The notes under the pieces: generated by a model
Seen by the model: the letters and a program-made list of their open reading frames with translations, nothing else
What the model was told of the DNA's origin: nothing
Databases searched by the model: none
Shown here: positions 48,293-63,799 of the stretch, piece after piece
How positions within the stretch are numbered: the first letter of the stretch is position 1
Layout: every line of letters starts with the position of its first letter
Program-made: the position numbers and the translations under genes
Source of the DNA: Yinghuangia seranimata
Lineage (GTDB): Bacteria > Actinomycetota > Actinomycetes > Streptomycetales > Streptomycetaceae
Reading direction: 5' to 3'
DNA length: 64,000 bases
NCBI RefSeq assembly: GCF_029953285.1
Contig: NZ_JASAOI010000014.1
Span: forward strand, 124,001 to 188,000

Positions 48293-49126
48293 TCATCCCG
48301 CCATACCCGGCAACACCGGTACTGCGTCCAGCAGTTCCCTCGTGTACGGGTGCGTCGGCCGGGCCAGCACGTCACCCGTCAGGCCCTGCTCGACCACCGA
48401 ACCGTCCTTCAGAACCAGCACCCGGTCGCACAGCCGCTGCACGACACCGAGGTCGTGCGACACCAGCACCAGGGCGAGTCCGAGCCGGACGGCCAGCTCC
48501 TCCAGCAGGTCCAGGACCTGCGCGCGCACCGAGACGTCCAGCGCGCTGACCGGCTCGTCCGCCACCAACACCGTCGGGCTCGGCGCGAGGGCGCGGGCGA
48601 TCGCGATGCGCTGGCGCTGCCCGCCGGAGAACTCGTGGGGGTAGCGGCGCAGGACGTCCGACTCCAGGCCCACCGCGGCGAGCACCTCGACGACGCGGGC
48701 GGCGTGGTCGCCGTCGACGCCGAGGCACTCCAAAGGCTCGGCGACGATGTCCCGCACGCGGGCCCGCGGGTCGAGCGAGCCCATCGGGTCCTGGAGCACC
48801 ACCTGCACCTCGCGCCGGAACCAGACGAGATCGCGCGGCCGCCGCGACGCGCGCACCTCCCGGCCGCGGAACAGCACCCGTCCGGAATCCGGCCGGTCGA
48901 GGCCGAGGAGCAGCCGCAGCAGCGTCGACTTGCCCGCCCCGGACTCGCCGACCACGCCCAACGCACCGCCCTCGGGCAGGACGAGGTCGACCCCGCGCAA
49001 CGCGTCCCGCACGGGCGCAGGCCCGCGCAACGAGCGCCGGGGGAGCCGGTAGGAGCGGGACAGGCCATGGGCCTGGAGGAGCGGCGGCGTGGCTCCGACC
49101 TCTGGTGTGGTTTCTGCGTGGGTCAC
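48293..49126 (-). CDS. Peptide/nickel-type ABC importer ATPase (DppF/OppF-like)
   Basis: 277 residues: Walker A GESGAGKST near 66, Q-loop VVLQDPMGSLDPR, signature FSGGQRQRIAIARAL, Walker B VLVADEPVSALDVS, switch SHDLGVV and the typical C-terminus HPYTRELLDAVPVL (the 4Fe-4S type Cys motif of some DppD/F is absent). GTG 49126 overlaps the stop of the permease-ATPase fusion. Last gene of the importer operon; it forms the second ATPase of the complex. Confidence 0.92.
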   Translation of the reverse strand: MTHAETTPEVGATPPLLQAHGLSRSYRLPRRSLRGPAPVRDALRGVDLVLPEGGALGVVGESGAGKSTLLRLLLGLDRPDSGRVLFRGREVRASRRPRDLVWFRREVQVVLQDPMGSLDPRARVRDIVAEPLECLGVDGDHAARVVEVLAAVGLESDVLRRYPHEFSGGQRQRIAIARALAPSPTVLVADEPVSALDVSVRAQVLDLLEELAVRLGLALVLVSHDLGVVQRLCDRVLVLKDGSVVEQGLTGDVLARPTHPYTRELLDAVPVLPGMAG

Positions 49127-50904
49127 GGGTTCACCGCCATGTGCTCGGGCGCGTTGCCTGTCGGATCGAACGCCGTCGCCCTCGCCGCCGCCAGCAGGTC
49201 CTTCGTGTACGGCTCGCGCGGTGCCCGCACTACCTCCTCCGTCGTGCCCTCCTCGATCAGCCGGCCGCCGCGCATGACGGCGACGCGGTCGGCGACACCC
49301 GCCACCACCGCGAGGTCGTGCGTGATGAAGAGCAGCGCCGTCTCCTCCTCCCGGGTCAGCTCGTCCAGCAGTCCGAGGATCTCCCGCTGTACCGTGACGT
49401 CCAGGGCGGTGGTCGGCTCGTCGGCGATCAGCACCGCGGGGCGGCAGGCCAGGGCGATCGCGATGCCGACCCGCTGCCGCTGCCCGCCAGACAGCTGGTG
49501 CGGCCAGGACCGCACCGCGTGCTCCGGGTCGGGGAGGCCCACCCGCCGGACCAGTTCGACGGCCTCGGCGGCGGCCTGGCGGCGCGTCATGCCCCGGTGC
49601 AGGCGCAGCGGTTCGGCGATCTGCGCGCCCACCCGCCGCAGCGGGTCCAGCGCTGTCGACGGCTCCTGGAACACCACCGCGACCTGGTCGCCGCGCACCC
49701 TCGCCAGCTCGCGTTCGCGCAGCCCCAGCAGCTCCCGCCCGGCCAAGCGGATACTCCCCGACGCCTCCGCGCCGTCCGGGAGCAGCCCCGGCACCGCCAG
49801 CGCGGTCAGCGACTTGCCGGACCCGGACTCCCCGATCAGGCCCACGCGTTCGCCGGGCGCGAGGGACAGGTCGACCTCGTCCACGACCGTGCGGCCGTTG
49901 ATGCGGACGGTCAGGCCGCGGATGTCGAGCACCGGGAGCACCGCGTCGCCCGCCAGCCCGGTCGATGAATGGTCGACCGCCGCGCCGGCGGCACCTGCGG
50001 CCTGGGCGCCGCCACCCACCCGCCCGGCCGACCCGGCCCCGACAGCAGCCCCCGAACCCGCTTTTGCTCCACGCACCTTCGGGTCGGTCGCGTCCCGCAG
50101 CGCGTCGCCCAGCAGGTTGAACCCGAGCACCGACAGGGCGACCGCCAGGCCCGGCCACACGACCAGCAGCGGCCGCGCCTCGATGTAGGGCTGCTGGTCG
50201 TACAGCATGCGGCCCCACGACACGGCCGGCGCCGGGCTGCCGTACCCCAGATAGGCGAGCATCGCCTCGGTCAGCGACGCCACCGACATCACCAGCGACA
50301 GCTGCACGATCAGCGTCGAGGCGATGTTCGGCAGCACGTGCCGCCGCACGGTGCGCCACGTGCCCGAGCCGGCCGCCGTCGCCGCGAGCACGTAGTCGGT
50401 GCCGCGCACCCGGTCGATCTCCGCGCGGGCGACCCGCGCGACGTGCACGCCGGACGCGATGCCGACCGCCGTCGCCGCCGTCCACAGCGAACCTCCGAAG
50501 ACCGCCGCGAGGATCATCGCGGTCAGCAGCGCCGGGAACGCGATGACCACGTCCACGAGTTGGGCGACCGACGCGGACACCCAACGCGTCGGCAGCGTCG
50601 CCGCCAACGCCAGGGCCACCCCGACCACACTCGCGATCGCGGTCGCCAGCACCGCCACGGCCAGCGTCTCCCGGGCGCCCGCGAGCAGCAGGCTGAACTG
50701 GTCGCGGCCGAGCATGTCGGTGCCCAGCAGGTGGCCGTCGCGCAGCGGCAGCACCCAGCGGGCCTTCAGGTCGGTCGTCGCGGGGTCGTACGGCGTCCAC
50801 ACCCACGACACGCCCGCCGCGACCACCAGCGTCCCGACCAGCACCAGGCCGAGCAGCCCGTTCCGGTCCCGCAGCAGCGCCCGCCACCAGGTCGTGCCGG
50901 TCAC
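49123..50904 (-). CDS. ABC importer permease-ATPase fusion (DppC-DppD)
   Basis: 593 residues joining two subunits. Residues 1-275 are a DppC-type permease (six TM, HLLGTDMLGRDQFSLLLAGAR, EAMLAYLGYGSPAPAVSWGRML, the EAA loop near 180); after an Ala/Gly-rich linker (about 280-315) comes a DppD ATPase (Walker A GESGSGKS, VVFQEPSTALDPLRRV, LSGGQRQRVGIAIAL, LIADEPTTALDVT, ITHDLAVVAGVADRVAVM). GTG 50904 overlaps the DppB-type stop. The fusion fixes 1:1 permease to ATPase. Confidence 0.9.
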   Translation of the reverse strand: MTGTTWWRALLRDRNGLLGLVLVGTLVVAAGVSWVWTPYDPATTDLKARWVLPLRDGHLLGTDMLGRDQFSLLLAGARETLAVAVLATAIASVVGVALALAATLPTRWVSASVAQLVDVVIAFPALLTAMILAAVFGGSLWTAATAVGIASGVHVARVARAEIDRVRGTDYVLAATAAGSGTWRTVRRHVLPNIASTLIVQLSLVMSVASLTEAMLAYLGYGSPAPAVSWGRMLYDQQPYIEARPLLVVWPGLAVALSVLGFNLLGDALRDATDPKVRGAKAGSGAAVGAGSAGRVGGGAQAAGAAGAAVDHSSTGLAGDAVLPVLDIRGLTVRINGRTVVDEVDLSLAPGERVGLIGESGSGKSLTALAVPGLLPDGAEASGSIRLAGRELLGLRERELARVRGDQVAVVFQEPSTALDPLRRVGAQIAEPLRLHRGMTRRQAAAEAVELVRRVGLPDPEHAVRSWPHQLSGGQRQRVGIAIALACRPAVLIADEPTTALDVTVQREILGLLDELTREEETALLFITHDLAVVAGVADRVAVMRGGRLIEEGTTEEVVRAPREPYTKDLLAAARATAFDPTGNAPEHMAVNP

Positions 50905-51854
50905 GACGCCGTCTCCCGCAGCCGCGGGTCGATCAGCCGCTGCGCGACGTCGACCAGGAACCCGACCGCCAGCACCACCGCGACGACCACCAGCACCTCG
51001 CCCTGCACCTTGACCATGTCGCGGTTGCCGACGTCCGCGACCAGCATCGAGCCCACCCCCGGCAGCGCGAACACCTTCTCCACCACGACCGCGCCCACCA
51101 GCAGCGCCGCCACCTGCACGCCGAGGACCGACAGCACCGGGCCCGCCGCGTTCCGCAGCCCGTGCCGCCACAGCGCCCCCGCCCGCGTGCGCCCCGAGGC
51201 CCGGGCCGTGCGCAGGAAGTCCCGGCCGAGGACGTCGAGCGCCGCAGAGCGCACGAACCGCAGCAGCACCGCGCCCTCGGACAGCGCCAGGGTCACCACG
51301 GGCAGGACCAGGCTGCGCGCGGCCTCTCCCGGCGCGGACCACCCTTCGACGGGGAAGCCCTGGGCGGGCAGCAGCCGCGCCTCGACGGCGAACACCGTGA
51401 CCAGCAGCAGGCCCACCCACAGCGTCGGCAGCGCGATGCCGAGCTGTCCGACGGTGCTGATGCCGGTGCCGAGCCGGGTCCGGTGCCGCAACGCCGCAAG
51501 CACGCCGAGCGGCACCGCGCCGGCCAGCGCGAGAGCCAGCGCGGCGAGCACGAGCGGGCCGGTCACCCGCAGTTTTTCGCCCAGCTCCGCCGTGACCGAC
51601 GTCCCGTTGAGCTGCGAACGCCCCAGGTCGCCGTGCAGCACCCCGCCGAGCCACGACCGGTACTGCTCCGCCAACGACCGGTCCAGACCCAACTCGTGGC
51701 GGATCGCCCGCAGTTGCGCGGGATCAGCAGTGATCCCGCCGCGTGCCGCGGCCGCGTCCCCGGGGAGCAGTCGCAGCAGCGCGAACGCGAGCAGGCTGGC
51801 CAGGAAGAGCGCGAGGACGAGCAGGGCGAGGCGGCGCACCACGAACACCGTCAT
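50901..51854 (-). CDS. ABC importer permease (DppB-like)
   Basis: 317-residue binding-protein-dependent transport permease: N-terminal TM VVRRLALLVLALFLASLLAFALLRLLPGD, TADPAQLRAIRHELGLDRSLAEQYRSWL, and the C-terminal VVVEKVFALPGVGSMLVADVGNRD block typical of DppB. ATG 51854 overlaps the stop of the preceding ORF (ATGA). Pairs with the permease half of the fused protein. Confidence 0.92.
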   Translation of the reverse strand: MTVFVVRRLALLVLALFLASLLAFALLRLLPGDAAAARGGITADPAQLRAIRHELGLDRSLAEQYRSWLGGVLHGDLGRSQLNGTSVTAELGEKLRVTGPLVLAALALALAGAVPLGVLAALRHRTRLGTGISTVGQLGIALPTLWVGLLLVTVFAVEARLLPAQGFPVEGWSAPGEAARSLVLPVVTLALSEGAVLLRFVRSAALDVLGRDFLRTARASGRTRAGALWRHGLRNAAGPVLSVLGVQVAALLVGAVVVEKVFALPGVGSMLVADVGNRDMVKVQGEVLVVVAVVLAVGFLVDVAQRLIDPRLRETAS

Positions 51855-52420
51855 GCCTGGGACCGCCCCGGGGCAGGCTCCGCCGACCACACGACGGTGC
51901 GCCGCGCCGACCGCCGCCCGAACCAGGACGGGCGCGCGCGAAGCGGTCCGGGCGGGGGCACGGCGGTGGAGCGCGGTGCATGGAAGGGTGCGTCGTCGCG
52001 TACAGGCTCGTCGCGGCCGGGATGTGGTTCGCGGCGGGCTTCATCGGGTCGTGGGCGGGCTGCTGCCCACACGCGGCCGCCCCCACCGTCCAGCCGGGCG
52101 TACGGGGCCGCGTGGGGTGCCGGGGCGGCGTCCTCGTCGGCCCCGGCACTCGCGACGACGACCCCGAACGCGCGGGCGACGGCGATCAGGCCCGGCGTGG
52201 CGAACTCGAGGAGCGCGTGGAGGACGCCCTCGCCGCGCGCGGCCGCGACCGGCGGTGCGGCCTCAGCCTCGCGGAACCTGCCGCGCCCTCCGAAGCCGCC
52301 GCGTCTCAAGAACCCGGCGAGCGCGCCGGGCCCGCCACCGCTGCGTGCCGCGTCACCCGCTATCCGGGGCGGCGGCACCTTCCCGCCGCGTCCGCCGAAC
52401 CCGGCCGATCGTCCCGTCAC
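51851..52420 (-). CDS. Unrecognised ORF coupled between binding protein and permease
   Basis: 189 codons filling exactly the gap between the binding-protein gene and DppB-type permease, with a GTGA overlap upstream and an ATGA overlap downstream. It encodes a Gly/Arg-rich start, one hydrophobic stretch (LHALLEFATPGLIAVARAFGVVVASAG, about 68-94) and a Pro/Arg/Asp-rich tail. No homologue recognised. The exact 4-nt overlaps and G/C-rich third positions support coding, but the tail is low complexity and opposite-strand ORFs also exist. It may be an accessory small membrane subunit, or non-coding sequence. Confidence 0.45.
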   Translation of the reverse strand: MTGRSAGFGGRGGKVPPPRIAGDAARSGGGPGALAGFLRRGGFGGRGRFREAEAAPPVAAARGEGVLHALLEFATPGLIAVARAFGVVVASAGADEDAAPAPHAAPYARLDGGGGRVWAAARPRPDEARREPHPGRDEPVRDDAPFHAPRSTAVPPPGPLRARPSWFGRRSARRTVVWSAEPAPGRSQA

Positions 52421-53997
52421 TTCACGATCCCCACGCCCGCCAGCGGCAGACGGCTGCTCGTGTAGTGCTGCGGCGCCCCGGACACGCCCTTGCGCACCAC
52501 GGTCAGCGTCTGGGCCTGGAACAGCCAGTCCGCCGCGGCGTCCTCCGACGCCTGGCGGCCGACCTTGCCCAGCAGGTCCACCCGGGTCTTCTCGTCCGGC
52601 GCGACGGTGGCCTGGGCGAACCAGTCCTGGACCTGCTTGTTGTCGTAGCCGAAGTAGTAGCCGGGGTTCGCGTAGTTGCCCAGGTCGCGGGCCTCGGCGT
52701 GGTTGACCAGACTCAGGTCGTAGTCCTTGTTGGTGTACACCTCGGTCAGCCAGGCGGTGAACTCCTGCTGCCTGACCGTCAGTTCGATGCCGGCCTTTTT
52801 GAAGTCGGAGACGAGGACGTCGCCGATCGCCGCCGGATAGATGCTCGGGATTTTCAGGGTCAGCTTGAGCCCGTCCGGGTAGCCCGCCGCGGCGAGCGCC
52901 TGCTTCGCCGCCGCCGGGTCGTAGCCGTCCACCGAGGTCAGGTCCTGGTACCACGGGTCGGACGTCGGCACAGGGCCGCCGACCCGGACCCCCGCCCCGC
53001 CCAGCGCCTGGATGAGCGCGGCCTTGTCGACCGCCCGGCGCAGCGCGTGCCGTACCGCAGGGTTGTTCAGCGGCGCCTTGGCGTTGTTGAACGCGAGCGT
53101 GTACTTGTCCGTCGTCGTGCCGCGCAGCACGGTGAAGCCCGCGTTGCCGGTGAACGGCTGGAGCAGGGTCGCGTCGGCGCTGGTCTGGACGTCGGTCTGC
53201 CCGGTCGACTCCGCGTTGTCGGCCGCGTTGCGGTCGGTGATGTACCGCAGCACCACCTTGGCCGACCTGGCCTTCGGCCCCGGCCCCTGGTACGCGTCGT
53301 TGCGCACCAGCGTGATCGCCGAACCCCGCTGCCAGGTCTCCAGCTTGAACGGCCCGGAGCCGTTCTCCGCGGCGTCCAGCTTCGTGAAGTCGGTGCCCTT
53401 CTTGTAGACGACGGCGGCGCGTTGGGTCAGCGCCCACGTCAGGTCGTTGTCGCGCTGTTTGAGGGTCAGGACGACGGTGCCGGGGTCGGGCGCCGCGGCG
53501 TTCGCGATCGAGCCGAGCGTCTTGGCGTTCGGCTGCTTGGAGCCGGGCGCCGTGGCCTGCCGCAGCGACCACACCACGTCGTCGGCGGTGAGCGGCGAAC
53601 CGTCGTGGAACGCCGCGCCCTTGGCCAGGTGGAAGGTGTAGGTCAGGCCGTCGGCGGACGTCTCGTACGACGCGGCCAGCGCCGGCACGATCTTGTTGTC
53701 CGCGTTGGTGTCGACGGTCAGCAGCCCCTGGTACACGTTGTCCAGCAGCAGCTGTTCCAGCGCCGCGCCGGCCGTCGTGGTGAGGTTCAGGCTGGTCGGT
53801 TCGAGGACGAGCCGGACGTTGACGGTGGCGTTGGGGTTGAGCGCCGAGTCGGGCGCGGCGGACGCGGCGCTCGTCTGACCGGGCACGCCCGCGCTCGGGT
53901 TCGCGGGATCGTCCGACGAACCGCCGGTGCCGCACGCGGCGGTCGCCAGGCCGGTGAGCACGAGGGCGGTCGCGAGACGGGGTATGGAGCGGCGCAT
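52417..53997 (-). CDS. Extracellular solute-binding lipoprotein, family 5 (peptide/opine-type)
   Basis: 526 residues. Lipobox signal (LVLTGLATAACGTGG) with lipidated Cys near 22, then an SBP_bac_5 domain: LLLDNVYQGLLTVD, PALAASYETSADGLTYTFHLAKGAAFHDGSPLTADDVVWSLRQA in order, and ALRRAVDKAALIQALGG. It captures the importer's substrate, usually a di- or oligopeptide, nickel chelate or opine-like amino acid. The operon context suggests an organosulfur compound, which is inference. A 120-bp gap separates it from the hydrolase gene. Confidence 0.92.
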   Translation of the reverse strand: MRRSIPRLATALVLTGLATAACGTGGSSDDPANPSAGVPGQTSAASAAPDSALNPNATVNVRLVLEPTSLNLTTTAGAALEQLLLDNVYQGLLTVDTNADNKIVPALAASYETSADGLTYTFHLAKGAAFHDGSPLTADDVVWSLRQATAPGSKQPNAKTLGSIANAAAPDPGTVVLTLKQRDNDLTWALTQRAAVVYKKGTDFTKLDAAENGSGPFKLETWQRGSAITLVRNDAYQGPGPKARSAKVVLRYITDRNAADNAESTGQTDVQTSADATLLQPFTGNAGFTVLRGTTTDKYTLAFNNAKAPLNNPAVRHALRRAVDKAALIQALGGAGVRVGGPVPTSDPWYQDLTSVDGYDPAAAKQALAAAGYPDGLKLTLKIPSIYPAAIGDVLVSDFKKAGIELTVRQQEFTAWLTEVYTNKDYDLSLVNHAEARDLGNYANPGYYFGYDNKQVQDWFAQATVAPDEKTRVDLLGKVGRQASEDAAADWLFQAQTLTVVRKGVSGAPQHYTSSRLPLAGVGIVK

Positions 53998-54117: not shown

Positions 54118-54996
54118 TCAGTCGGTGGTGTGGGTGCGGACGAACGCCCCGAACTCGGCGTACACGTCGGCCCGGTCGGTCTCGGCCAGGACGTTGTGCC
54201 GGTCCTCGGGGAAGACCCGGGCGCGCGCGTCGGGCAGCCGGGCGGCGGTCGCCTCGACGGCCGCGGCGGGGGCCAGGTCGTCGGCGCCGCCGTGGAGGAA
54301 CAGCACGGGCAGCGTCACCCGGCCCGACGCGACCGCGTCGGCGATGCGCCTTCCGGCGGCCTCCAGCGCGTCGAGGGTCTCGTAGCGCAGGCCGCCGTCC
54401 CACACCAGCGGGTCGTTGCGGACCTGTTCGGCGTACGCGGCGTCGCCGCACAGCTCGGACGGGTCCTTGCGCAGGTCCATCGGGTCGATGCCGTGCTCGT
54501 CGAGGAGCGCGCGCAGGCCGCCCTTGGGGCCCGCGTCCGGATCGCCCATGCCGACGCTCGCACCCGCCAGGACGAGCGCGCGTGCGTGCGCTGCCGCCGG
54601 GCGTTCCGCCGCAAGTAGCAGGGAGACGGCGGAGCCCAGTGAGTGACCCGCGATCACCAGGGGAACCCCCGGACGCTCGGCGGCGATCCGGGCCAGCACC
54701 AGTTCGGCGTCGTCCGCGACCGCGTCGACGCTCTCCACCAGCACGCGCGTGCCGTCGCTGAGCCCGTGCCCGATGTGGTCGGGCGCCCACAGCTCCACGC
54801 CGTCCGCGGTCAGGTGCTCGGCGAGCGGGCCGTACAGCCCCGCGTACTCGCCCAGGCCGTGCAGGAACAGCACGACCGCTGCGGGCTCGGCGTCGGCCGG
54901 GCTCCACACGCGCACGTGGACCTGGCCGCGGGCGCCGGTCAGGCGCTCCTCGCGCGGCGTCGCGTGCGCCGGCCGACCTGTGTGATGAACCGTCAT
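54118..54996 (-). CDS. Alpha/beta hydrolase (monoacylglycerol lipase-like)
   Basis: 292-residue hydrolase_4-type protein. HGLGEYAGLY near 46, nucleophile Ser119 in GHSLGS, the acid in LHGGADDLAP and the His in EDRHNVLAE. Cytoplasmic. The ATG overlaps the stop of the 2OG-MetY fusion gene (ATGA), so it is part of that operon. Substrate likely an ester or amide entering through the importer, not necessarily a lipid. Confidence 0.88.
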   Translation of the reverse strand: MTVHHTGRPAHATPREERLTGARGQVHVRVWSPADAEPAAVVLFLHGLGEYAGLYGPLAEHLTADGVELWAPDHIGHGLSDGTRVLVESVDAVADDAELVLARIAAERPGVPLVIAGHSLGSAVSLLLAAERPAAAHARALVLAGASVGMGDPDAGPKGGLRALLDEHGIDPMDLRKDPSELCGDAAYAEQVRNDPLVWDGGLRYETLDALEAAGRRIADAVASGRVTLPVLFLHGGADDLAPAAAVEATAARLPDARARVFPEDRHNVLAETDRADVYAEFGAFVRTHTTD

Positions 54997-57422
54997 GAGC
55001 GGGCCTCCGCGGCCGAGTCGAGGCCGCGACGCAGGTCGGCGAGGAGGTCGCCGATGCCTTCGAGGCCGATGGACAACCGGACGAGCCCGGGGGAGACCCC
55101 GGCGAGACGCTGCTGCCCGGCGTCCAACTGCGCGTGCGTCGTGGACGCGGGATGGATCGCCAGGCTGCGCGCGTCGCCGATGTTGGCCAAGTGGCTGAAC
55201 AACCGCAAGCCCTCCACGAACCGGCGGCCCGCCTCGGCACCGCCCGCCAGGTCGACGGCCAGCACCGCGCCCGCGCCGCGCGGCAGATACCGCTTGGCCG
55301 CCGCGTGCCACGGGCTCGACGGCAGGCTGGGGTGGTCCACCCGCTGGACACCGGGCCGCGCCGCCAGCCACGCCGCGACCGTCGCGGCGTTCTCGGTGTG
55401 CCGGGTGATCCGCAGCGACAGCGTCTCCAGGCCCTGGAGCAGCAGGAAGCTGTTGAGCGGCGACACCGCCGGGCCGAGGTCGCGCAGCAGCCGCACCCGC
55501 AGGCGCAGCGCGTACGCCACGCCGTCCGCGCCGAACCGCTCCCAGAACGCCAGGCCGTGGTACGTCGGATCAGGTGCCGTCAGCCCCGGCCACCGCTCCG
55601 GTGCCGCGCCGAAGTCGAACCGGCCGCCGTCCACGACGACGCCGCCGATCGCGGTGCCGTGCCCGCCGAGGAACTTGGTCGTCGAATGCACGACGATGTC
55701 GGCGCCGTGTTCGAGCGGCCGCAGCAGGTAGGGCGTGGGCACGGTGTTGTCGACGACCAGCGGGACGCCGGCCTCGTGCGCGACCTCGGCGACGGCCGCG
55801 ATGTCGAGGACGTTGCCGCGCGGATTGCCGATGCTCTCGCCGAACAGCGCCCGGGTCTGCGGCCGGACGGCGGCGCGCCACGCGCCGACGTCGTCGGGGT
55901 CGTCGACGAACGACACCGCGACGCCCAGGTCCGCGAAGGTGTGTTCGAGGAGCGTGCGGGTCCCGCCGTACAGCGACGCCGCCGCGACGACGTGGTCGCC
56001 GGCGCGGGCGAGGTTGAGCAGCGCCAGCGTGGTCGCGGCCTGGCCGCTGCCGACCGCGACGGCCGCCGTTCCGCCCTCCAGCGCGGCGATGCGCTCCTCG
56101 ACGACGGACGTGGTCGGGTTGGACAGCCGGGTGTAGGCGTGCGTCTTCAGGTCGGTGAGCGCGAACGCGTCGGCGGCGTGCGCGGCATCGCGGAACACGT
56201 AGCTGCTGGTCAGGTAGACCGGGACGGCGCGGGCGCCGGTCGCGGGGTCGGGGCGGGCCCCGGCGTGCACCTGGAGGGTGTCGAACGACAGTGTGGGACG
56301 GCCGGGTTCGGGCTCCTCAAGCGGCTCGGGCGGCGCTGCCGCCGTGGACCCGGCCGCTGCGGGCACCAGGTCCGACCACCACCGCTCCACCACCCGAGGG
56401 TGCGAACGCAGCCAGCCCAGCAGCGCGTTCTCGCCGTACGCCGGCTTGAGCGGGTTGTCCGGGTCCTCCGTCACCCCGTCCGCCTCGGCCGCCAACGCGG
56501 CCGGGAGCGTGAGGGGTTCGACGACCGCGTCCAGACGCGGGCCGAGGAAGAACGGCAGCGAGTAGCGGTCCACGCCGGACGGCGGGGCGACCACGCGGTG
56601 CCGGGTGGCACGCAGGTAGCCGCGCGTCGCGATCTCCAGCATCTCGCCGATGTTGAACACGAACGAGTCCGGCAGCGGCGCCGCGTCGATCCACGAGCCG
56701 TCGCGCGCCTGCACCTGGAGACCGCCGACGTCGTCCTGCTGGAGCAGCGCGAGGTAGCCGTAGTCCTTGTGCGCGCCCACCCCCTGCTCGACGTCCGCCG
56801 CCGGGCGCCCCGGGTAGTGCACGACCTTGACGTGCACGGCCGCCTCGTCGTCGAACCAGCGGTCGAAGTAGCCGTCGTCCTGCCCGAGCGCGGCGGCCAG
56901 CGCGCGCAGGACCTCGCGGCTGACCCGCAGCGCCTCGGCCTGCCAGCGCAGCACGACGTCCTTGAGCGCCGGCAGGGCGGTCGGCCACTGGTTCGGGCCG
57001 ACCAGGCGCAGGTACGCCGGATCGTCCGGGCCGAGGTCGAGCGCCGGGCGCTCGGGGCCGATGTCCAGCTGCTCGCGCCAGTCGGGGCCGCCCGCGGTGT
57101 ACTCGGTGCCGGTGCGCGTGTAGCCGCGGAACTGCGGGGACCGCACGTTCTCGATCTCCAGGCGCTGTTCCTCGGGGAGCGCGAAGAACTCGCGGGCCAC
57201 GTCGTACGCCTGGCGGCGCAGCGCCGGGTCGACGCCGTGGCCGACCACGTAGAAGAAGCCGATCTCGCGGGCGGCGCGGCGTAGTTCGTCGAGCAGGGCG
57301 GCGCGCTCGGCGGCGGGGCCGCGGAAGCGCGAGATGTCGATCACCGGCAGTGCGGCCGGCGCCGGGGCGGGCGCGGCCGGGTCGGCGGAGGGCGTGCTGG
57401 GACGGGGGGCGACGGTCGTCAT
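54993..57422 (-). CDS. Fusion: IPNS-like Fe(II)/2OG oxygenase plus O-acetylhomoserine sulfhydrylase
   Basis: 809 residues joining two enzymes. Residues about 24-350 are an isopenicillin-N-synthase-family dioxygenase: DIOX_N start LPVIDISRFRG, iron ligands His218 and Asp220 (AHKDYGYL) and His275 (RATRHRV), and 2OG-anchoring Arg286/Ser288 (DRYSLPFF). After a Pro/Glu/Ala linker (about 352-376) comes a full-length MetY: FDTLQVHAGARPDP, SGQAATTLALLNLA, NTVPTPYLLRP and PLP Lys583 (HSTTKFLGGHGTA). All catalytic residues are intact, so both halves should work. The MetY half closely resembles the standalone MetY at 61322. Context: organosulfur uptake operon; see findings. Confidence 0.93.
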   Translation of the reverse strand: MTTVAPRPSTPSADPAAPAPAPAALPVIDISRFRGPAAERAALLDELRRAAREIGFFYVVGHGVDPALRRQAYDVAREFFALPEEQRLEIENVRSPQFRGYTRTGTEYTAGGPDWREQLDIGPERPALDLGPDDPAYLRLVGPNQWPTALPALKDVVLRWQAEALRVSREVLRALAAALGQDDGYFDRWFDDEAAVHVKVVHYPGRPAADVEQGVGAHKDYGYLALLQQDDVGGLQVQARDGSWIDAAPLPDSFVFNIGEMLEIATRGYLRATRHRVVAPPSGVDRYSLPFFLGPRLDAVVEPLTLPAALAAEADGVTEDPDNPLKPAYGENALLGWLRSHPRVVERWWSDLVPAAAGSTAAAPPEPLEEPEPGRPTLSFDTLQVHAGARPDPATGARAVPVYLTSSYVFRDAAHAADAFALTDLKTHAYTRLSNPTTSVVEERIAALEGGTAAVAVGSGQAATTLALLNLARAGDHVVAAASLYGGTRTLLEHTFADLGVAVSFVDDPDDVGAWRAAVRPQTRALFGESIGNPRGNVLDIAAVAEVAHEAGVPLVVDNTVPTPYLLRPLEHGADIVVHSTTKFLGGHGTAIGGVVVDGGRFDFGAAPERWPGLTAPDPTYHGLAFWERFGADGVAYALRLRVRLLRDLGPAVSPLNSFLLLQGLETLSLRITRHTENAATVAAWLAARPGVQRVDHPSLPSSPWHAAAKRYLPRGAGAVLAVDLAGGAEAGRRFVEGLRLFSHLANIGDARSLAIHPASTTHAQLDAGQQRLAGVSPGLVRLSIGLEGIGDLLADLRRGLDSAAEARS

Positions 57423-57570
57423 GACGGTTCCTCGTGCGGCGAGTCAGCGCGATATGCCGGTACGCCGACGGGAGTTCCGCGGCGGGGGCATCGGACGGCT
57501 CGTATGCCGGGCACCGCGGACCCCGTACCCCCGGAACGCGGGGGCGGGGGCGGCGGTGCGCGGACGCGCG

Positions 57571-57657
57571 TCAGCGACAGATCTGGTCGAAGTGGTCGGC
57601 GCGGCGCCCGGCCCAGAACGGGTCGAGGAGCGCGGACAGGATCTGTGGCGAGGCCAT
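57571..57657 (-). CDS. Short leader-type ORF upstream of the 2OG-MetY fusion
   Basis: 28 codons from ATG 57657, beginning MASPQILSALLDPFWAGRR and ending ADHFDQICR before TGA. A short ORF ending in Ile-Cys-Arg, 148 bp upstream of a sulfur-amino-acid gene, matches the pattern of actinobacterial leader peptides that sense cysteinyl-tRNA. No Shine-Dalgarno is visible. It could instead be a small regulatory protein; too short for family tests by eye. Confidence 0.5.
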   Translation of the reverse strand: MASPQILSALLDPFWAGRRADHFDQICR

Positions 57658-57695
57658 GGCGGCGATGAAAGCACGTGCGGAGCGCCGTCGTCCAC

Positions 57696-57715
57696 TTGTG
57701 AACACGGTGCTAACA
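57696..57715. promoter_or_regulatory. Bipartite motif, copy 1 (shared with the metY locus)
   Basis: TTGTGAACAC at 57696-57705 followed, after three bases, by GCTAACA to 57715. Seventeen of twenty positions match the copy at 60987-61006. It lies 38 bp upstream of the leader ORF, inverted relative to that transcript. Confidence 0.5.
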
Positions 57716-57744
57716 GGCGGGGGTGCCCGGAGCGCCCGCGCGGG

Positions 57745-58689
57745 TCAGCCGCCGGCCACACGTCCCGGGAACGCCCCGGCCTCCGCGCGCTCGGTCAACC
57801 GGTCGATCACGAGCGCGAGCGGCGGCCAGTCGCGGTGTCCGAGGCGGGTCACGGCGTACGCGCGCATGTACACGGCCGGATCCTCGAGCGGTACGACCCG
57901 CACCCCGGCGGTCGTCGGGCGGTCCTGCGGGAGCAGGCCCACGCCCAGGCCCGCGGTGATCAGCTCCTCGACCAGGTCGAGGCTGTCCGCGCGGTGCGTG
58001 ACGTGGGGTGTGAAGTCCGCCAGCGCGCCGATCCTGCGGGCCACTTCCTCGTCGGCGGTGTTGCGCGAGTTGACGATCCACTCGCGCTCCCGGAAGCGCG
58101 CGAACAGCTCGGGCGAGGTCCGCGCCCCGGCGCACGCGGCGGCCTCCTCCGCCGGGACGCCGAGGCCCCACCGGGTCCGCCACAGCGGCGTCACCGCGAG
58201 CGCGGGGTCGGGCGGCGCGGGGGACAGGTTGTAGTCGTAGACCAGCGCCAGGTCGACCTCGTCGGCGGCCAGCATGCCGAGCGCCTCGGCCGGCTCGTGC
58301 TCGCGCACCAGGACGTGCACGCGCGGGTGGCTGCCGGAGAGCTCCCGCAGCACCGGCAGCAGGCTCCCGCTGACCGCCGTCTGGAAGCCGCCCACCCGTA
58401 CCGTGCCGTTCGGCTCGGCGGTCGGCCCCAGGTCGCGGCGCGCGGCCTCGACGGCGGCCAGGATCGTCACCGCGTGCTCGGCCAGCCGCCGCCCGTACGG
58501 GGTCAGCCGCACCCGGCGCCCGTCCGGCTCGAACAGCGGCGCGCCCATCTCGTGCGCGAGCACCGCGAGCTGCTGCGACACCGTGGAGGTGGTGGTGTGC
58601 ATCACCTCCGCGACGGCGCGCATCGACCCCAGGCGCTCCAGCTCGGCCAGCATCTCCAGGCGGCGGGTCTCCATCTCCCTATTGTCCAT
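57745..58689 (-). CDS. LysR family transcriptional regulator
   Basis: 314 residues: LysR HTH (RRLEMLAELERLGSMRAVAEVMHTTTSTVSQQLAVLAHEMGAPLFEPDGRRVRLTPYG in sequence) and substrate domain (GTVRVGGFQTAVSGSLLPVLREL, ITAGLGVGLLPQDRP). ATG 58689 overlaps the LysR box; ATG 58674 (METRRLEM) would place the box upstream of the gene and is a good alternative. Divergent from an EamA exporter, the classic LysR target layout; it also lies directly upstream of the 2OG-MetY operon on the same strand. Confidence 0.88.
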   Translation of the reverse strand: MDNREMETRRLEMLAELERLGSMRAVAEVMHTTTSTVSQQLAVLAHEMGAPLFEPDGRRVRLTPYGRRLAEHAVTILAAVEAARRDLGPTAEPNGTVRVGGFQTAVSGSLLPVLRELSGSHPRVHVLVREHEPAEALGMLAADEVDLALVYDYNLSPAPPDPALAVTPLWRTRWGLGVPAEEAAACAGARTSPELFARFREREWIVNSRNTADEEVARRIGALADFTPHVTHRADSLDLVEELITAGLGVGLLPQDRPTTAGVRVVPLEDPAVYMRAYAVTRLGHRDWPPLALVIDRLTERAEAGAFPGRVAGG

Positions 58690-58707
58690 GATTCGTGAAC
58701 GGATCAT
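58688..58707. promoter_or_regulatory. Putative LysR box
   Basis: ATGAT-N10-ATCAT, fitting the LysR T-N11-A rule, in the divergent lysR/eamA region about 50 bp before the EamA start. Expected to be the main recognition site. Confidence 0.6.
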
Positions 58708-58757
58708 CAATAATCAGCACGTGGACGCGAATGATCGTTCGGCGGTCTACTCGGGGC

Positions 58758-59729
58758 ATGACGACGAAAGAAGCGGTGTCGGGGACCCGCACGGCCCGGC
58801 CCGCCCTCGGCGGCGCCCAGGGCGGGGCGCTCATGGCCGTGGGCGCCATGCTCTGCGTGCAGACCGGGCTGGCCGTGTCGGTGCAGCTCTTCGACCGAAT
58901 AGGCCCGCTGGGCGCGACCTGGCTGCGCCTCATGTGCGCGGGCGTGATCCTGCTCGTCCTGGTCCGGCCCAAGCCCTCCGACTTCGCCCGCCGCGACCTG
59001 CTCGCCTGCATGGGCCTCGGCGTCGTCACCGCCGGCATGATGCTGCTCTTCATGAGCGCCGCCGCGCGGATCCCACTCGGCACCGCCAGCGCGCTGGAGT
59101 TCCTCGGCCCGCTCGGCGTCTCCCTGTACGCGGCCCGCGGCCGGGCCCGGATCTGGGCGCTGCCCGCCGCGGCCGGCGTCGTCCTGCTCACCGAGCCGTG
59201 GCACGGCGGCGTCGACGGGGTCGGCGTCGCCTGCGCGCTGGGCGCGGCCGTCGGCTGGGCCGGCTACATCCTGCTGACGCAGCACGTCGGCGACAAGGTC
59301 ACCGGGCTCAAGGGCCTCGCCGTGTCGCTGCCCACCGCGGCGGTCGTCGCCACCTTCGTCGCCGCGCCCACCGAGGCGGGCGACCTGACCTGGCAGCTGC
59401 TCGGCATCGGGCTGGCGCTCGCGGTGCTGCACCCCGTCCTGCCGTTCAGCCTCGAGGTGGCCGCGCTGCGGCGGCTGGCCGCCAACGCGTTCGGCGTGCT
59501 GATGAGCGTGGAGCCGGCCATCGCGGTCGTCATCGGCCTGGTGATCCTCGGCCAGGTGCCGGGTCCGCTGTCCGTGGTGGGCGTCCTGCTCGTGGTCGGC
59601 GCGGGGATGGCGGCGACGCGCGGCGGGGCCCGGGACTCGGCCGCGGCCTCCGTGGACGTCCAGACCGACCTGCCGGCCGCGCTGCCGCGTCCGGCCGACG
59701 GCAACAGGCGGCCCGCGTACGTCGATTAG
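58758..59729 (+). CDS. EamA (DMT) family amino acid/metabolite exporter
   Basis: 323 residues with ten TM helices in two EamA repeats: [39 protein letters not shown] opening, [18 protein letters not shown], and [37 protein letters not shown] in the second half. Closest in type to RhtA/YddG-like homoserine, threonine or aromatic amino acid exporters. In a region of homoserine-derived metabolism, export of homoserine or a sulfur amino acid is plausible. ATG 58758 chosen over an upstream ATG at 58695 inside the LysR box region. Confidence 0.87.
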
Positions 59730-59756
59730 CATGCCATCCGACCCGAGGAGGCCGGA

Positions 59757-60977
59757 GTGGCACACGCGGACCACAGCGAAGAGCCCCGGAGCGACGGCCC
59801 GTTGGCGGGCGTGACCGTCGTCAGCCTCGAACAGGCCGTGTCCGCACCGATGTGCACGCGCACCCTCGGGGACTTCGGCGCCCGCGTCATCAAGGTCGAG
59901 CACCCGCGCGGCGGCGACTTCGCCCGCCACTACGACGACGTCGTGCACGGCCAGGCCGCGCACTTCGTGTGGCTCAACCGCGGCAAGGAGTCGGTCGCGC
60001 TCGACGTCAAGGACCCCGGCGGCGTCGCCGTCCTGCACCGCCTCCTCGGGCGCGCCGACGTCCTCGTCTCCAACCTCGCCCCGGGCGCCGCCGGCAGGCT
60101 CGGGCTCGGCCGCGACGCCCTCGCCGCACGCCACCCCGACCTGATCGCCGTCGAGATCGACGGCTACGGCGCCGGGGGACCGCTCTCCGGCAAACGCGCC
60201 TACGACCTGCTGGTGCAGGCCGAGTCCGGGGCGTGCTCGATCACCGGCCACCCGGGCGCGCCGGCCAAGCCCGGGCCGCCGATGGCCGACGTGTGCACCG
60301 GCCTGTACGGGGCGATCTCGGTCCTCGCGCTGCTGGCCGGGCGCGGACGCGGGCGACCCGTGGACCCGACCGTGTCGGTGAGCATGTTCGACACCATGGC
60401 CGAACTCATGGGCTACGCGCTCACCTACACCCGGCACACCGGCGTCGACCAGGAGCCGCGCGGCATGGGCTCGCCCGCGGTCGCCCCGTACGGCGCCTAC
60501 CCGACCGCCGACGGCCACACCGTCGTCCTCGGCACCACCAACGACCGCGAATGGCAGCGCCTGGCCGACGAGTTGCTGGAACGCCCCGGCCTGGCCGCCG
60601 ACCCGCGCTACACCGCCAACGCCGACCGCGTCCGGCACCGCGACGCGCTGGACGAGGCCATCGCCGCATGGTGCGCCCGCCACAAGCTGGCCGACATCCA
60701 GGCCCGCGCCGACGCGGCCGGCATCGGCAACTCCCGCTACAACACGCCGAGCGACGTCCTCGCCCACCCGCACCTCGCGGCCCGCGGCCGCTGGCAGACC
60801 GTCGCCACGCCGGGCGGCGACGTACCGGCGCTGCTGCCGCCGCCGGTGATCCCCGGCTACACCCCGCCCATGGGCGCGATCCCGGCCCTGGGCGAGCACA
60901 CCGCAGCCGTTCTGGCCGAACTGGGCTACGACGACGCCGAGATCGCCGACCTGCGGACCCGCGGAGCGATCGGCTGA
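59757..60977 (+). CDS. CaiB/BaiF (family III) CoA-transferase
   Basis: 406 residues of the family III CoA-transferase type: LAGVTVVSLEQAVSAPMCTRTLGDFGARVIKVE, RGKESVALDVKDPGG, SNLAPGAAGRLGLG, catalytic Asp178 (PPMADVCTGLYGA) and the NGRWQ-like end RGRWQTVATPGG. Transfers CoA between carboxylates; substrate unknown. GTG 59757 follows GAGGAGG. It starts 27 bp after the EamA gene, so cotranscription is likely. Confidence 0.87.
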   Translation: MAHADHSEEPRSDGPLAGVTVVSLEQAVSAPMCTRTLGDFGARVIKVEHPRGGDFARHYDDVVHGQAAHFVWLNRGKESVALDVKDPGGVAVLHRLLGRADVLVSNLAPGAAGRLGLGRDALAARHPDLIAVEIDGYGAGGPLSGKRAYDLLVQAESGACSITGHPGAPAKPGPPMADVCTGLYGAISVLALLAGRGRGRPVDPTVSVSMFDTMAELMGYALTYTRHTGVDQEPRGMGSPAVAPYGAYPTADGHTVVLGTTNDREWQRLADELLERPGLAADPRYTANADRVRHRDALDEAIAAWCARHKLADIQARADAAGIGNSRYNTPSDVLAHPHLAARGRWQTVATPGGDVPALLPPPVIPGYTPPMGAIPALGEHTAAVLAELGYDDAEIADLRTRGAIG

Positions 60978-60986
60978 GCCCGCGAG

Positions 60987-61006
60987 TTGTGAACACCGCG
61001 CGAACA
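60987..61006. promoter_or_regulatory. Bipartite motif, copy 2 (metY locus)
   Basis: TTGTGAACAC at 60987-60996 then GCGAACA at 61000-61006, matching the copy at 57696-57715 in 17 of 20 positions. It lies 71 bp upstream of the metY leader ORF. Confidence 0.5.
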
Positions 61007-61065
61007 CCCTGTTGCGCGATCCGCGACACGCCGGAAAACGCCTGGTCGGCGCCGGTCGCGCCGCC

Positions 61066-61071
61066 TACGCT
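61066..61071 (+). promoter_or_regulatory. Putative -10 box of the metY leader transcript
   Basis: TACGCT ends six bases before the leader ATG, which would put transcription start at or next to the A of ATG (leaderless). No convincing -35 box. Confidence 0.5.
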
Positions 61072-61077
61072 CACGGC

Positions 61078-61158
61078 ATGCCTCAGCCGTTGCTCGTCGC
61101 CCGCCGCCACGTGGACCTCGCCCGCGTGACGAGCATGGCGTGTCGTACGAGCCGCTGA
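61078..61158 (+). CDS. Putative leader peptide (cysteine attenuation type)
   Basis: 26-residue ORF reading MPQPLLVARRHVDLARV then TSMACRTSR. The LVxRRHVDLxRVxSxxCR pattern is the actinobacterial putative leader peptide family placed upstream of sulfur assimilation genes; the Cys codon (TGT, residue 22) is the presumed sensor. A hairpin follows the stop by 13 bases and metY starts 163 bp downstream. Function as attenuator is inference from the family. Confidence 0.85.
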   Translation: MPQPLLVARRHVDLARVTSMACRTSR

Positions 61159-61171
61159 CGGCGACCGCGAT

Positions 61172-61202
61172 GCCCTGACGGCCCCCGAGGGTTCCGTCGG
61201 GC
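61172..61202 (+). promoter_or_regulatory. Candidate attenuator hairpin after the metY leader
   Basis: GCCC-T-GACGG paired with CCGTC-GGGC, one bulged T and a 13-nt loop with complementary CCC/GGG. It is close enough to the leader stop that a stalled ribosome could change its folding. Confidence 0.45.
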
Positions 61203-61321
61203 CGCGCCGCCCCCGTTTCGCCGACCAGCTGTCGGCCCCACCGCTTCCGCCCCCGCCGCGCGACGCCGAACAGGCGTGCGCCGCCGGAGCGTTCCCGCAC
61301 CACGCCCCCGCAGGAGTTCCC

Positions 61322-62674
61322 ATGACCGTCGACGCCACCGTCGAAAGCCCGGCCGACCTCGCCGCCGCGTCCACCGACCCGTCCGCCTGGGCGTTCGAGA
61401 CCCGGCAGATCCACGCCGGAGCCGCCCCCGACCCGGCGACCGGGGCCCGGGCCGTCCCCGTGTACCAGACCACCTCGTTCGTCTTCCGCGACACCGACCA
61501 CGCCGCCGGGCTGTTCGACCTGTCGCAGGAAGGCCACATCTACACCCGCATCCACAACCCCACCACCGACGCCCTCGAACAGCGCGTCGCCTCGCTGGAA
61601 GGCGGCGTCGCCGCGGTCGCCACCGCGTCCGGGCAGGCCGCGACGACCCTCGCGGTGCTCAACCTCGCCGGCGCGGGCGACCACATCGTCTCCAGCGCCT
61701 CGCTGTACGGCGGCACCTACAACCTCTTCCACTGGACGCTGCCCAAGCTCGGCGTCGAGGTGACCTTCGTCGAGGACCCCGACGACCCCGAGGCGTGGCG
61801 CGCGGCGATCCGGCCCGAGACGAAGCTGCTGTTCGGCGAGACGCTCGGCAACCCGCGCGGCAACGTCCTCGACATCGCGGCCGTCGCCGGCATCGCCCAC
61901 GAGGCGGGCGTCCCGCTGGTCGTCGACAACACCGTGCCCACGCCCTACCTGCTGCGCCCGATCGAGCACGGCGCCGACGTCGTCGTGCACTCGGCGACCA
62001 AGTTCCTCGGCGGGCACGGCACCGCGATCGGCGGCGTCGTGGTCGACGCCGGGACCTTCGACTTCGGCGCGCACCCCGACCGGTTCCCCGGGTTCACCGC
62101 GGCCGACGAGAGCTACGGGGGCCTGCGCTACTGGCCGGACCTGGGCGCGGGGGCGTACGCGGCCAAGCTCCGCGTCCAACTGCTGCGCGACGTCGGCGCG
62201 TCCATCGCACCGCTGACCAGCTTCCTCATCCTGCAGGGACTGGAGACCCTGTCGCTGCGCCTGGAACGGCACGTCGCCAACGCGTCCGCGATCGCCCGCT
62301 GGCTCGCCGACCGCGACGACGTCGAACGCGTGCACTACGCCGGACTGCCCGACAGCCGCTGGTACGACGCCGCCGCGCGCTACCTCCCGCGCGGCGCCGG
62401 CGCCATCGTCGCGTTCGAACTCAAGGGCGGCGTCGAGGCCGGCCGGCGGTTCGTCGACGCGCTGACCCTGTTCAGCCACCTCGCCAACATCGGCGACGTG
62501 CGCAGCCTCGTCATCCACCCCGCCTCCACGACGCACGCGCAGCTCACCCCCGAGCAGCAGGCCGCCACCGGCGTGACGCCCGGCCTGGTACGGCTGTCCG
62601 TCGGCATCGAGGACCTCGACGACCTGACCGCCGACCTCGAAGCCGGGTTCGCCGCGGCCCGCGCGACCGCGTAA
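61322..62674 (+). CDS. metY: O-acetylhomoserine sulfhydrylase
   Basis: 450-residue Cys/Met-metabolism PLP enzyme that makes homocysteine (or methionine with methanethiol) from O-acetylhomoserine and sulfide. Blocks: FETRQIHAGAAPDPATGARAVPVYQTTSFVFRD in order, SGQAATTLAVLNLAGAGDH, PLP Lys227 (HSATKFLGGHGTA), and the VIHPASTTHAQL C-terminal arginine-side region. ATG 61322 follows GGAG. It is nine bases upstream of metX, and a leader peptide and shared motif precede it. A second copy is the C-terminal half of the fusion at 54993-57422. Confidence 0.95.
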   Translation: MTVDATVESPADLAAASTDPSAWAFETRQIHAGAAPDPATGARAVPVYQTTSFVFRDTDHAAGLFDLSQEGHIYTRIHNPTTDALEQRVASLEGGVAAVATASGQAATTLAVLNLAGAGDHIVSSASLYGGTYNLFHWTLPKLGVEVTFVEDPDDPEAWRAAIRPETKLLFGETLGNPRGNVLDIAAVAGIAHEAGVPLVVDNTVPTPYLLRPIEHGADVVVHSATKFLGGHGTAIGGVVVDAGTFDFGAHPDRFPGFTAADESYGGLRYWPDLGAGAYAAKLRVQLLRDVGASIAPLTSFLILQGLETLSLRLERHVANASAIARWLADRDDVERVHYAGLPDSRWYDAAARYLPRGAGAIVAFELKGGVEAGRRFVDALTLFSHLANIGDVRSLVIHPASTTHAQLTPEQQAATGVTPGLVRLSVGIEDLDDLTADLEAGFAAARATA

Positions 62675-62683
62675 GGCCGCGCC

Positions 62684-63799
62684 GTGACCACCGCACCACC
62701 CCGGCTCGCCGCCCGGCGCACGATCGTCCTCGACCGGCCGCTGCGCCTGGAGTGCGGGGCCGAACTGCCGGACGTGCGCGTCGCGTACGAGACCTGGGGC
62801 ACCCCCGCGCCCGACCTGTCCAACGCCGTGCTCGTGCTGCACGCCCTCACCGGCGACAGCCACGTGGCGGGCGACGCGGGGCCCGGGTTCCCGACCGCCG
62901 GGTGGTGGGACGGACTCGTCGGGCCCGGCCGCGTGCTGGACACCGACCGGTGGTTCGTCGTCGCCCCGAACGTCCTCGGCGGCTGCCGCGGGACGACCGG
63001 CCCCGCCTCACCCGCCCCCGACGGGCGGCCGTGGGGCAGCCGGTTCCCGCGGCTGACGATCCGCGACCAGGTCGCCGCCGAGACGGCGTTCGCCAATACG
63101 CTCGGCGTCGGCCGGTGGGCGGCCGTCGTCGGCGGGTCCATGGGCGGCATGCGCGCGCTGGAGTGGGCGGTCACCCACCCGCACCGGGTCGGCGCGCTCT
63201 TCCTCGTCGCGTGCGGCGCCGCCGCGAGCGCCGAGCAGATCGCCTGGTGCGCGACGCAGACGCACGCGGTACGCGGCGACCCGGGCTGGCACGGCGGCGA
63301 CTACCACCACCTGCCGCCCGACGCCGGCCCCTGGCGCGGCCTCGGGCTGGCGCGCCGCATCGCGCACATCACCTACCGCAGCGAGGCCGAACTCCAGGCC
63401 CGCTTCGGGCGCGACCGGCAGCCCGACGACGCGCCGCCGGGGCGGTACGCCGTCGAGTCGTACCTCGACCACCACGCGGCCAAACTGACCGCGCGGTTCG
63501 ACGCCGGCAGCTACGTGGTCCTCACCGAGGCCATGAACAGCCACGACGTGGGGCGCGGCCGAGGCGGCGTCGCCGACGCGCTGGCCCGGATCACGGCGCC
63601 GACCACCGTCGCGGCGGTGTCCAGCGACCGGCTCTACCCGCCCGCGCAGCAGCGCGCGCTGGCGGCGACGATCCCGACCGCGGGGCCGCTGCGGTGGGTG
63701 GACTCGCCGTACGGGCACGACGGCTTCCTGATCGAACTCGACCAGGTGGCGCCGCTCGTGGCCGAGACCCTGGCCGTGACGCGGGCCCGGGCGGCCTGA
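62684..63799 (+). CDS. metX: Homoserine O-acetyltransferase
   Basis: 371-residue alpha/beta-hydrolase-fold acyltransferase that activates homoserine with acetyl-CoA. Nucleophile Ser152 (GGSMGGM), Asp315 (SSDRLYPP) and His345 (YGHDGF) form the triad; LHALTGDSHVAG and PNVLGGCRGTTGP are family hallmarks. GTG 62684 lies nine bases after the metY stop, one operon. Supplies O-acetylhomoserine to MetY and, by inference, to the fused MetY. Confidence 0.95.
   Translation: MTTAPPRLAARRTIVLDRPLRLECGAELPDVRVAYETWGTPAPDLSNAVLVLHALTGDSHVAGDAGPGFPTAGWWDGLVGPGRVLDTDRWFVVAPNVLGGCRGTTGPASPAPDGRPWGSRFPRLTIRDQVAAETAFANTLGVGRWAAVVGGSMGGMRALEWAVTHPHRVGALFLVACGAAASAEQIAWCATQTHAVRGDPGWHGGDYHHLPPDAGPWRGLGLARRIAHITYRSEAELQARFGRDRQPDDAPPGRYAVESYLDHHAAKLTARFDAGSYVVLTEAMNSHDVGRGRGGVADALARITAPTTVAAVSSDRLYPPAQQRALAATIPTAGPLRWVDSPYGHDGFLIELDQVAPLVAETLAVTRARAA

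Follow-up and report, generated by a model that had tools for sequence, protein, structure and literature searches.

Leader peptides with runs of cysteine codons were predicted earlier (in the portions available of PMC1262725 and PMC4633059), and Canestrari et al. 2020 reported polycysteine leaders to be attenuators that respond to cysteine, as described in the accessible part of PMC9031893. Another described type, the HVDL leaders of actinobacteria, is represented in NCBIfam by the models NF042934 (cis_reg_atten), NF042936 (Ms4527A) and NF042933 (Ms5788A). The present analysis concerns a 64,000-nucleotide stretch of Yinghuangia seranimata (assembly GCF_029953285.1, contig NZ_JASAOI010000014.1, positions 124,001 to 188,000 of the forward strand; hereafter, the window) that contains two MetY loci. 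An earlier note, made from the sequence alone, had placed a short leader open reading frame (ORF) ahead of each of them, and both ORFs were recovered: leader 1, upstream of metY, and leader 2, upstream of a gene encoding a 2OG-MetY fusion (Table 1). Leader 2 is a member of a real and apparently undescribed leader family, whose core is L[DE]PFWxxRRxxHFDQxC; it most likely acts as the HVDL leaders do, although it is not itself of their type.

No NCBIfam or Pfam model matched leader 2 (NCBIfam was searched up to E 10), and no NCBIfam model, the NF042934, Ms4527A and Ms5788A models included, matched five of its relatives, which bears out the suggestion that this leader is of a new type. Conservation of the 28-codon ORF in related loci, named beforehand as a test, was also observed, relatives being present in many genomes. 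A search with the leader 2 peptide (E ≤ 0.01) found matches in 33 of the 150 genomes examined from its own family, while a profile of the core (E ≤ 0.001) matched 56 of 394 genomes of the same class, in families f1, f3, f79, f90 and f99; we infer that f3, which carries the TauE loci described below, is mycobacterial. Matches were obtained in 18 of 396 genomes of the phylum, 13 being judged genuine and 5 spurious on reading. Named genomes were scanned as well, and the 36 loci obtained belong to Yinghuangia, Embleya, Streptomyces, Actinacidiphila, Frankia, Protofrankia, Pseudonocardia or Actinopolymorpha, or to metagenome-assembled genomes, for example one assigned to Frankiaceae and one to Corynebacteriales. 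An unannotated member was found on a linear plasmid of Streptomyces chartreusis (L204, 5001-5063), with TGT as its Cys codon and ABC ATPase homology ∼2.6 kb downstream of the leader; further weak matches in the plasmid searches, one per search, were taken as chance.

The comparisons below rest on 127 motif-bearing loci, a part of all the matches from the genome searches, which gave 97 unique leaders; the class-wide profile search listed 30 places, of which 16 were added to the set. The pattern used to select them required the Asp and the Cys, and allowed W/Y, R/Q and F/Y as well as a Trp-to-Cys distance of 11-13; the invariance of the Asp and Cys is thus partly built in, while the choice between TGT and TGC is unaffected. 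Rows excluded were L002 (a weak match in its own genome), L032 (a repeat of the window), L045-L049 (the 5 phylum matches judged spurious) and L077, in which the motif fell outside the position window, although it has the same core and TGT.

The conserved residues over the 45 distinct cores were L, P/A, F, W, R, R/Q, F, D, Q/R/E and C, and the distance from Trp to Cys was 12 codons in all 97 unique leaders. Heterozygosity at codon positions 1, 2 and 3 of these cores was 0.254, 0.229 and 0.370, respectively, and all four CGN codons were in use for the invariant Arg (Arg-9). With third positions the freest and every CGN codon used for Arg, the core behaves as coding sequence. The sensor Cys codon was TGT without exception (97/97 unique leaders, 45/45 distinct cores), while TGT made up only 10 of the 65 Cys codons of the homologous downstream genes. 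The other conserved codons tracked that background: Phe was encoded by TTC in 96 of 97 leaders (680/699 in the downstream genes) and Asp by GAC in 91 of 97 (1746/1877), so the Cys codon is an exception among the leader codons. An internal control was provided by Cys residues lying one codon before the sensor, which were encoded by TGC in 6 of 6 distinct cores. One tRNA-Cys, with anticodon GCA, decodes both UGU and UGC; UGU is presumably the wobble-read, slower codon, and its strict keeping suggests selection at decoding. Leader 2 itself has no run of Cys codons and contains only one. Since the residue before the Cys varies and 0-13 codons follow it, the terminal ICR singled out in the earlier note did not turn out to be the conserved element; the length before the Trp, with the chosen starts, was 7-31 codons. 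On sequence grounds, leader 2 has the traits of Cys leader peptides: a short ORF ahead of sulfur genes, with a sensor Cys codon that is conserved and lies close to its end.

A downstream gene and its start could be assigned for 91 of the 97 unique leaders; the others ended too soon (L061, L092), gave a split match (L069) or had no label (L008, L112, L142). The genes encoded a 2OG oxygenase with a fused or separate MetY (n = 6), an LLM monooxygenase (n = 3; 2OG and MetY come next in longer stretches of those places), a peptide-type ABC binding protein (n = 8), a cysteine dioxygenase (n = 25; with a rhodanese next where read), a TauE/SafE protein (n = 8) or an OmpR-type winged-helix protein without a receiver (n = 41). 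Clearly sulfur-related genes (2OG/MetY, LLM monooxygenase, cysteine dioxygenase and TauE) thus followed 42 of 91 leaders, the window operon included. Pfam searches on examples confirmed CDO_I, Rhodanese, TauE, Trans_reg_C and SBP_bac_5. These gene labels describe the contexts and do not test enrichment, since the reference proteins were drawn from the same loci and from the window. The OmpR-type gene occurs after the leader in many Streptomycetaceae and also in Frankia-type genomes (L010-L018, L022, L023, L025-L029, L031, L033-L041, L082, L085 and L087); its product may be a regulator under cysteine control that acts on sulfur responses more broadly. At L008, a leader of the family lies beside a divergent MetY-like gene with no assigned downstream gene, and is possibly an orphan left by gene loss.

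A comparison of the leaders found ahead of one gene family proved informative. A homologue of the 2OG domain was present in 84 of 150 family genomes (E ≤ 1e-60). Among the 30 loci listed, the gene was preceded by the new leader in 6, which were the 6 closest (identity ≥ 71%), and by an HVD-type leader in 23 (12 with the HVDL pattern, 11 with HVDY or HVDH); no leader was recognised in the last (L170). That one 2OG gene family carries either leader argues that both types give the same kind of control, and on this gene they look interchangeable. Two loci, L004 and L005, contain both types within 3 kb, much like the window. The HVDL leaders share the codon preference: the sensor Cys, chosen by position, was TGT in all 33 leaders that have one, while an extra Cys ahead of it was TGC in 15 of 16 cases. 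This set came from 38 loci, which rendered 34 distinct leaders (one without Cys) after setting aside 3 loci unmatched by the pattern and 1 repeat.

Leader 1 is by its sequence an ordinary member of the known actinobacterial leader family, as the earlier note had assumed, although it passed the NF042934 cut-off narrowly (27.7 bits, cut-off 27) and fell just below it in a genome-wide search (26.2 bits). In the window's own genome NF042934 matched 8 places at E ≤ 0.01, leader 1 among them. The score against NF042936 (Ms4527A) was below the curated cut-off (31.2 against 45 bits). Four codons separate its Cys from the stop codon, and 163 nt separate the ORF from metY.

These observations make it fairly probable that the leader 2 ORF is translated and encodes a cysteine leader peptide acting in cis, from a new family, in which a pause at UGU would derepress the sulfur operon. 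A ribosome would translate leader 2 from an mRNA probably beginning at its AUG and, when charged tRNA-Cys is scarce, would pause at the single UGU codon, the pause probably being aided by the nascent L[DE]PFWxxRRxxHFDQx in the exit tunnel. The paused ribosome would alter the downstream RNA, allowing expression of the operon (the 2OG-MetY fusion, the hydrolase and the ABC importer); with ample cysteine it would run off and expression would remain low. Leader 1 would act likewise on metY-metX by way of the known HVDL peptide. What is observed is the conservation and constant spacing of the peptide, the unchanging Cys codon, the kinds of downstream gene and the HVD-type swap; translation, pausing, dependence on tRNA-Cys, any role of the nascent peptide and the direction of regulation are inferred. 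The earlier note had suggested that, if both ORFs are attenuators, the two sulfur loci respond to charged tRNA-Cys in parallel. A parallel response is backed indirectly by the leader swap on the 2OG gene and by the shared UGU, but no attenuator structure was found at either window locus; the expression platform in the window may be Rho-dependent termination, a candidate already suggested for mycobacterial cys leaders (PMC1262725, in the part available).

Several results weigh against this mechanism. The region of leader 2 folded no better than shuffled sequences (z = -0.62; the value for leader 1, whose fold began 2 nt inside the ORF, was -0.56), and no terminator-like sites were present at 57000-61600. 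Pairing between the leader and the Shine-Dalgarno (SD) sequence of the next gene was not significant over 11 context groups (permutation P = 0.075). Opening energies, computed for 55 of the 91 loci (at most 8 per group, long spacers excluded), did not differ from those of shuffled leaders for the 2OG and TauE groups or for the Streptomyces regulators. A classical attenuator would be expected to have more than a single Cys codon, and TGT is not limited to the sensor, since a Cys directly after it was TGC in 22 leaders and TGT in 12. No sulfur role is known for 49 of the 91 downstream genes (8 ABC binding proteins and 41 regulators), and induction of a cysteine dioxygenase under cysteine shortage would be odd physiology; that context would be sensible only if the substrate of the enzyme were another thiol or the direction of control were reversed. 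Finally, the relatives are not phylogenetically independent.

A pairing signal was nevertheless obtained in one branch. The dioxygenase group has 25 loci, of which two, L088 and L093, pair in another register and were set aside. At the other 23, the leader positions C-7 to C-1, corresponding to the D-Q-x codons, paired with the SD sequence in 136 of 161 cells, compared with a mean of 126.9 for shuffled pairs (P = 0.0003); when only the 16 distinct pairs were considered, the figures were 89 of 112 cells and 84.4 (P = 0.032). Four Watson-Crick types (TA, AT, GC and CG) were seen at C-3, with 7 of the 23 loci unpaired there. Opening energies above those of shuffled leaders were found at most dioxygenase loci and at some LLM and ABC loci (L083, L091 and L117). 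Pairing of the D-Q-x codons with the next SD is thus partly shown, for the dioxygenase branch only. In the consensus fold of the Streptomyces regulator branch, the Phe-Asp codons pair at long range with the SD, but only 2 of the 27 pairs of this fold show changes on both sides (covariation term +0.23), that is, almost no compensatory change. A general leader-SD switch, prompted by this fold as well as by the perfect 8-bp complementarity seen in L042 and L059, was abandoned for lack of support over the 11 groups and kept for the dioxygenase branch only; a four-segment attenuator in the Streptomyces branch, based on CGCGCG repeats in A4, was likewise dropped, as neither truncated consensus folds nor opening energies bore it out. 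It can be advanced only tentatively that the new leader is a nascent-chain-assisted staller, of separate origin from HVDL, that senses cysteine supply at an obligatory UGU and marks out an actinobacterial cysteine regulon across orders (sulfur scavenging, cysteine dioxygenase, sulfite export and the OmpR-type regulator), its coding sequence serving, in one branch or more, as anti-Shine-Dalgarno strand.

As to the start of the leader mRNA, 75 of the 97 leaders carry a T....T hexamer whose distance to the chosen start codon is 6-7 nt, compared with 9.6% in shuffled upstream sequence; this is consistent with transcription starting at the leader itself. The canonical TAnnnT, the consensus of leaderless genes (PMC8079986, in the part available), was seen upstream of 15 new leaders only, and the hexamer is often preceded by TGn. 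The leader 2 upstream region contains no sigma-70 consensus; TGCTTTCAT lies 7 nt before its ATG and is not a canonical TAnnnT. This sequence arrangement hints that the leader 2 mRNA may be leaderless, starting at its AUG, and the TAnnnT ahead of leader 1 is placed as in a leaderless-like transcript. A uniform leaderless start was rejected as a rule for the family, since 21 of 97 leaders lack the hexamer; among these, an SD-like stretch can instead be made out by eye in the TauE leaders and in part of the regulator leaders. A TGTGCT/TCTGCT...AT-like element recurs 6-7 nt before the start (e.g. L020, L038 and L126) and lacks the A of the canonical -10; it may reflect another sigma factor or an activator.

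The strong conservation, which reaches up to 16 residues ahead of the Cys codon with fixed spacing, in peptides whose N-terminal length and tail vary, would also suit a TnaC-like nascent-chain arrest peptide that senses free cysteine or another sulfur compound and arrests at high metabolite, the Cys codon being the arrest site only. The dioxygenase, rhodanese and TauE contexts would indeed suit induction by cysteine excess. This explanation is nonetheless considered unlikely: the invariance of UGU rather than UGC points to decoding, HVD-type leaders substitute for the new ones on the same gene, and the mycobacterial Cys leaders are described as attenuators dependent on cysteine availability (PMC9031893, in the part available). 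If UGU and its neighbours were kept for RNA structure only, the leader would be an RNA switch insensitive to cysteine. Such a switch could account for the leader-SD pairing of the dioxygenase branch and for the long-range fold of the Streptomyces regulators; it appears improbable given the scarcity of double-changed pairs in that fold, the freedom of third positions at the conserved residues, and the fact that the pairing partners change with the context while UGU is constant in 97 leaders.

Conservation of the peptide could equally be expected if the ORF encoded a small functional protein with no regulatory role, but the variable lengths before the Trp and after the Cys, together with the differing downstream genes, make this very improbable. 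There is, lastly, next to no likelihood that leader 2 is a chance ORF lying over a promoter or operator, with a peptide devoid of function. Its ending alone is not decisive, because such endings occur among the ORFs of 20-60 aa in the window: 2 of 162, the leader 2 frame included, end in Cys-Arg and 48 have a Cys within the last 8 residues. Conservation across relatives, with matches in 56 of 394 class genomes, and the codon-like substitution pattern mark leader 2 as more than chance.

In the fusion protein, residues 25-295 match DIOX_N/2OG-FeII_Oxy and residues 381-801 match Cys_Met_Meta_PP; since the two parts are encoded by adjacent, separate genes at L007, the fusion has probably joined neighbours of one sulfur operon. 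The real start of the alpha/beta hydrolase gene is probably later than that of the listed ORF, and a homologue follows the fusion at L098, L099 and L108-L110. SBP_bac_5 homologues are the first labelled gene after the leader in Frankia and Protofrankia loci, and homologues of the ABC permeases and ATPases also occur downstream of leader 2 relatives. Away from these loci, the sole Rfam match in the window was a c-di-AMP riboswitch (62.1 bits, gathering score 38).

Table 1. Features of the two MetY loci and of the rest of the window; strand is relative to the window
Feature	Position	Strand	Remarks
Leader 1 ORF, HVDL family	61078-61158	+	26 aa, MPQPLLVARRHVDLARVTSMACRTSR
Sensor codon TGT of leader 1	61141-61143	+	
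-10 hexamer TACGCT (TAnnnT)	61066-61071	+	Ends 6 nt upstream of leader 1 ATG
metY	61322-62674	+	PRK07812, 787.7 bits
metX	62684-63799	+	Follows metY; MetX_acetyl_MTB, 523 bits
Leader 2 ORF, FW..RR..HFDQ.C family	57571-57657	-	28 aa, MASPQILSALLDPFWAGRRADHFDQICR
Segment of leader 2 peptide			PFWAGRRADHFDQ
Sensor codon TGT (Cys27) of leader 2	57577-57579	-	
TGC-TTTCAT, extended -10-like element	57665-57673	-	7 nt before leader 2 ATG
Spacer between leader 2 and fusion gene	57423-57570	-	148 nt; SD-like GAGG at 57433-57430
2OG-Fe(II) oxygenase + MetY-type O-acetylhomoserine sulfhydrylase fusion	54993-57422	-	809 aa
Alpha/beta hydrolase	54118-55371	-	Listed ORF opens within fusion gene
SBP_bac_5 solute-binding protein of ABC importer	52417-53997	-	
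ABC permeases and ATPases	48293-51890	-	Named from translations; overlapping ORF calls
c-di-AMP riboswitch RF00379	32497-32684	+	

If the proposal is correct, a second, unrelated type of peptide exists beside the known cysteine leaders, and it links genes that have no common annotation, among them an orphan Streptomyces OmpR-type regulator that may govern a more extensive sulfur response. The use of UGU in place of UGC would offer a testable case of aminoacylation sensing at a single codon, possibly with the nascent chain as the source of sensitivity. The family can be used now for annotating regulation in genomes, NCBIfam having no model for it. A literature text search confined to one paper collection gave no match to its motif strings, further literature searches of that collection brought up nothing on the family, and the available parts of PMC9094748, PMC13236596 and PMC9386245 contain nothing on it.

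Comparison with known systems places the new leader as follows. The Streptomyces lividans metN leader, as far as it is described in the available part of PMC8079986, resembles the new leader as a short ORF that contains Cys codons and precedes a sulfur gene; it is leaderless, as the new leader may be, but its sequence (MSTTSDRTPATEATTTPGARCMCRRMCAF) does not share the new core. The mycobacterial polycysteine leaderless ORFs likewise have Cys codons near the stop and precede sulfur operons, and 75 of the 97 new-leader relatives share their leaderless-like start; the new leader differs in having one invariant Cys codon instead of a run, and a long conserved peptide before it. With regulatory arrest peptides it has in common a conserved segment (L, W, R and F) at a fixed distance from a fixed codon. 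TnaC, too, has a Trp 12 residues ahead of its arrest site, and the known arrest peptides TnaC and SecM monitor tryptophan or protein export. The likeness seen is one of layout, arrest being a prediction for the new leader; the actinobacterial arrest peptides ApcA and ApdA are located upstream of yidC2 and secDF2 (PMC10987492, in the part available). HVDL-type leaders have the same make-up as the new leader, that is, a short ORF, a conserved peptide and one sensor Cys encoded by TGT, but their motif is RHVDLxRV rather than PFWxxRRxxHFDQ and, in the window, the Asp-to-Cys distance is 9 codons in the HVDL leader and 3 in leader 2.

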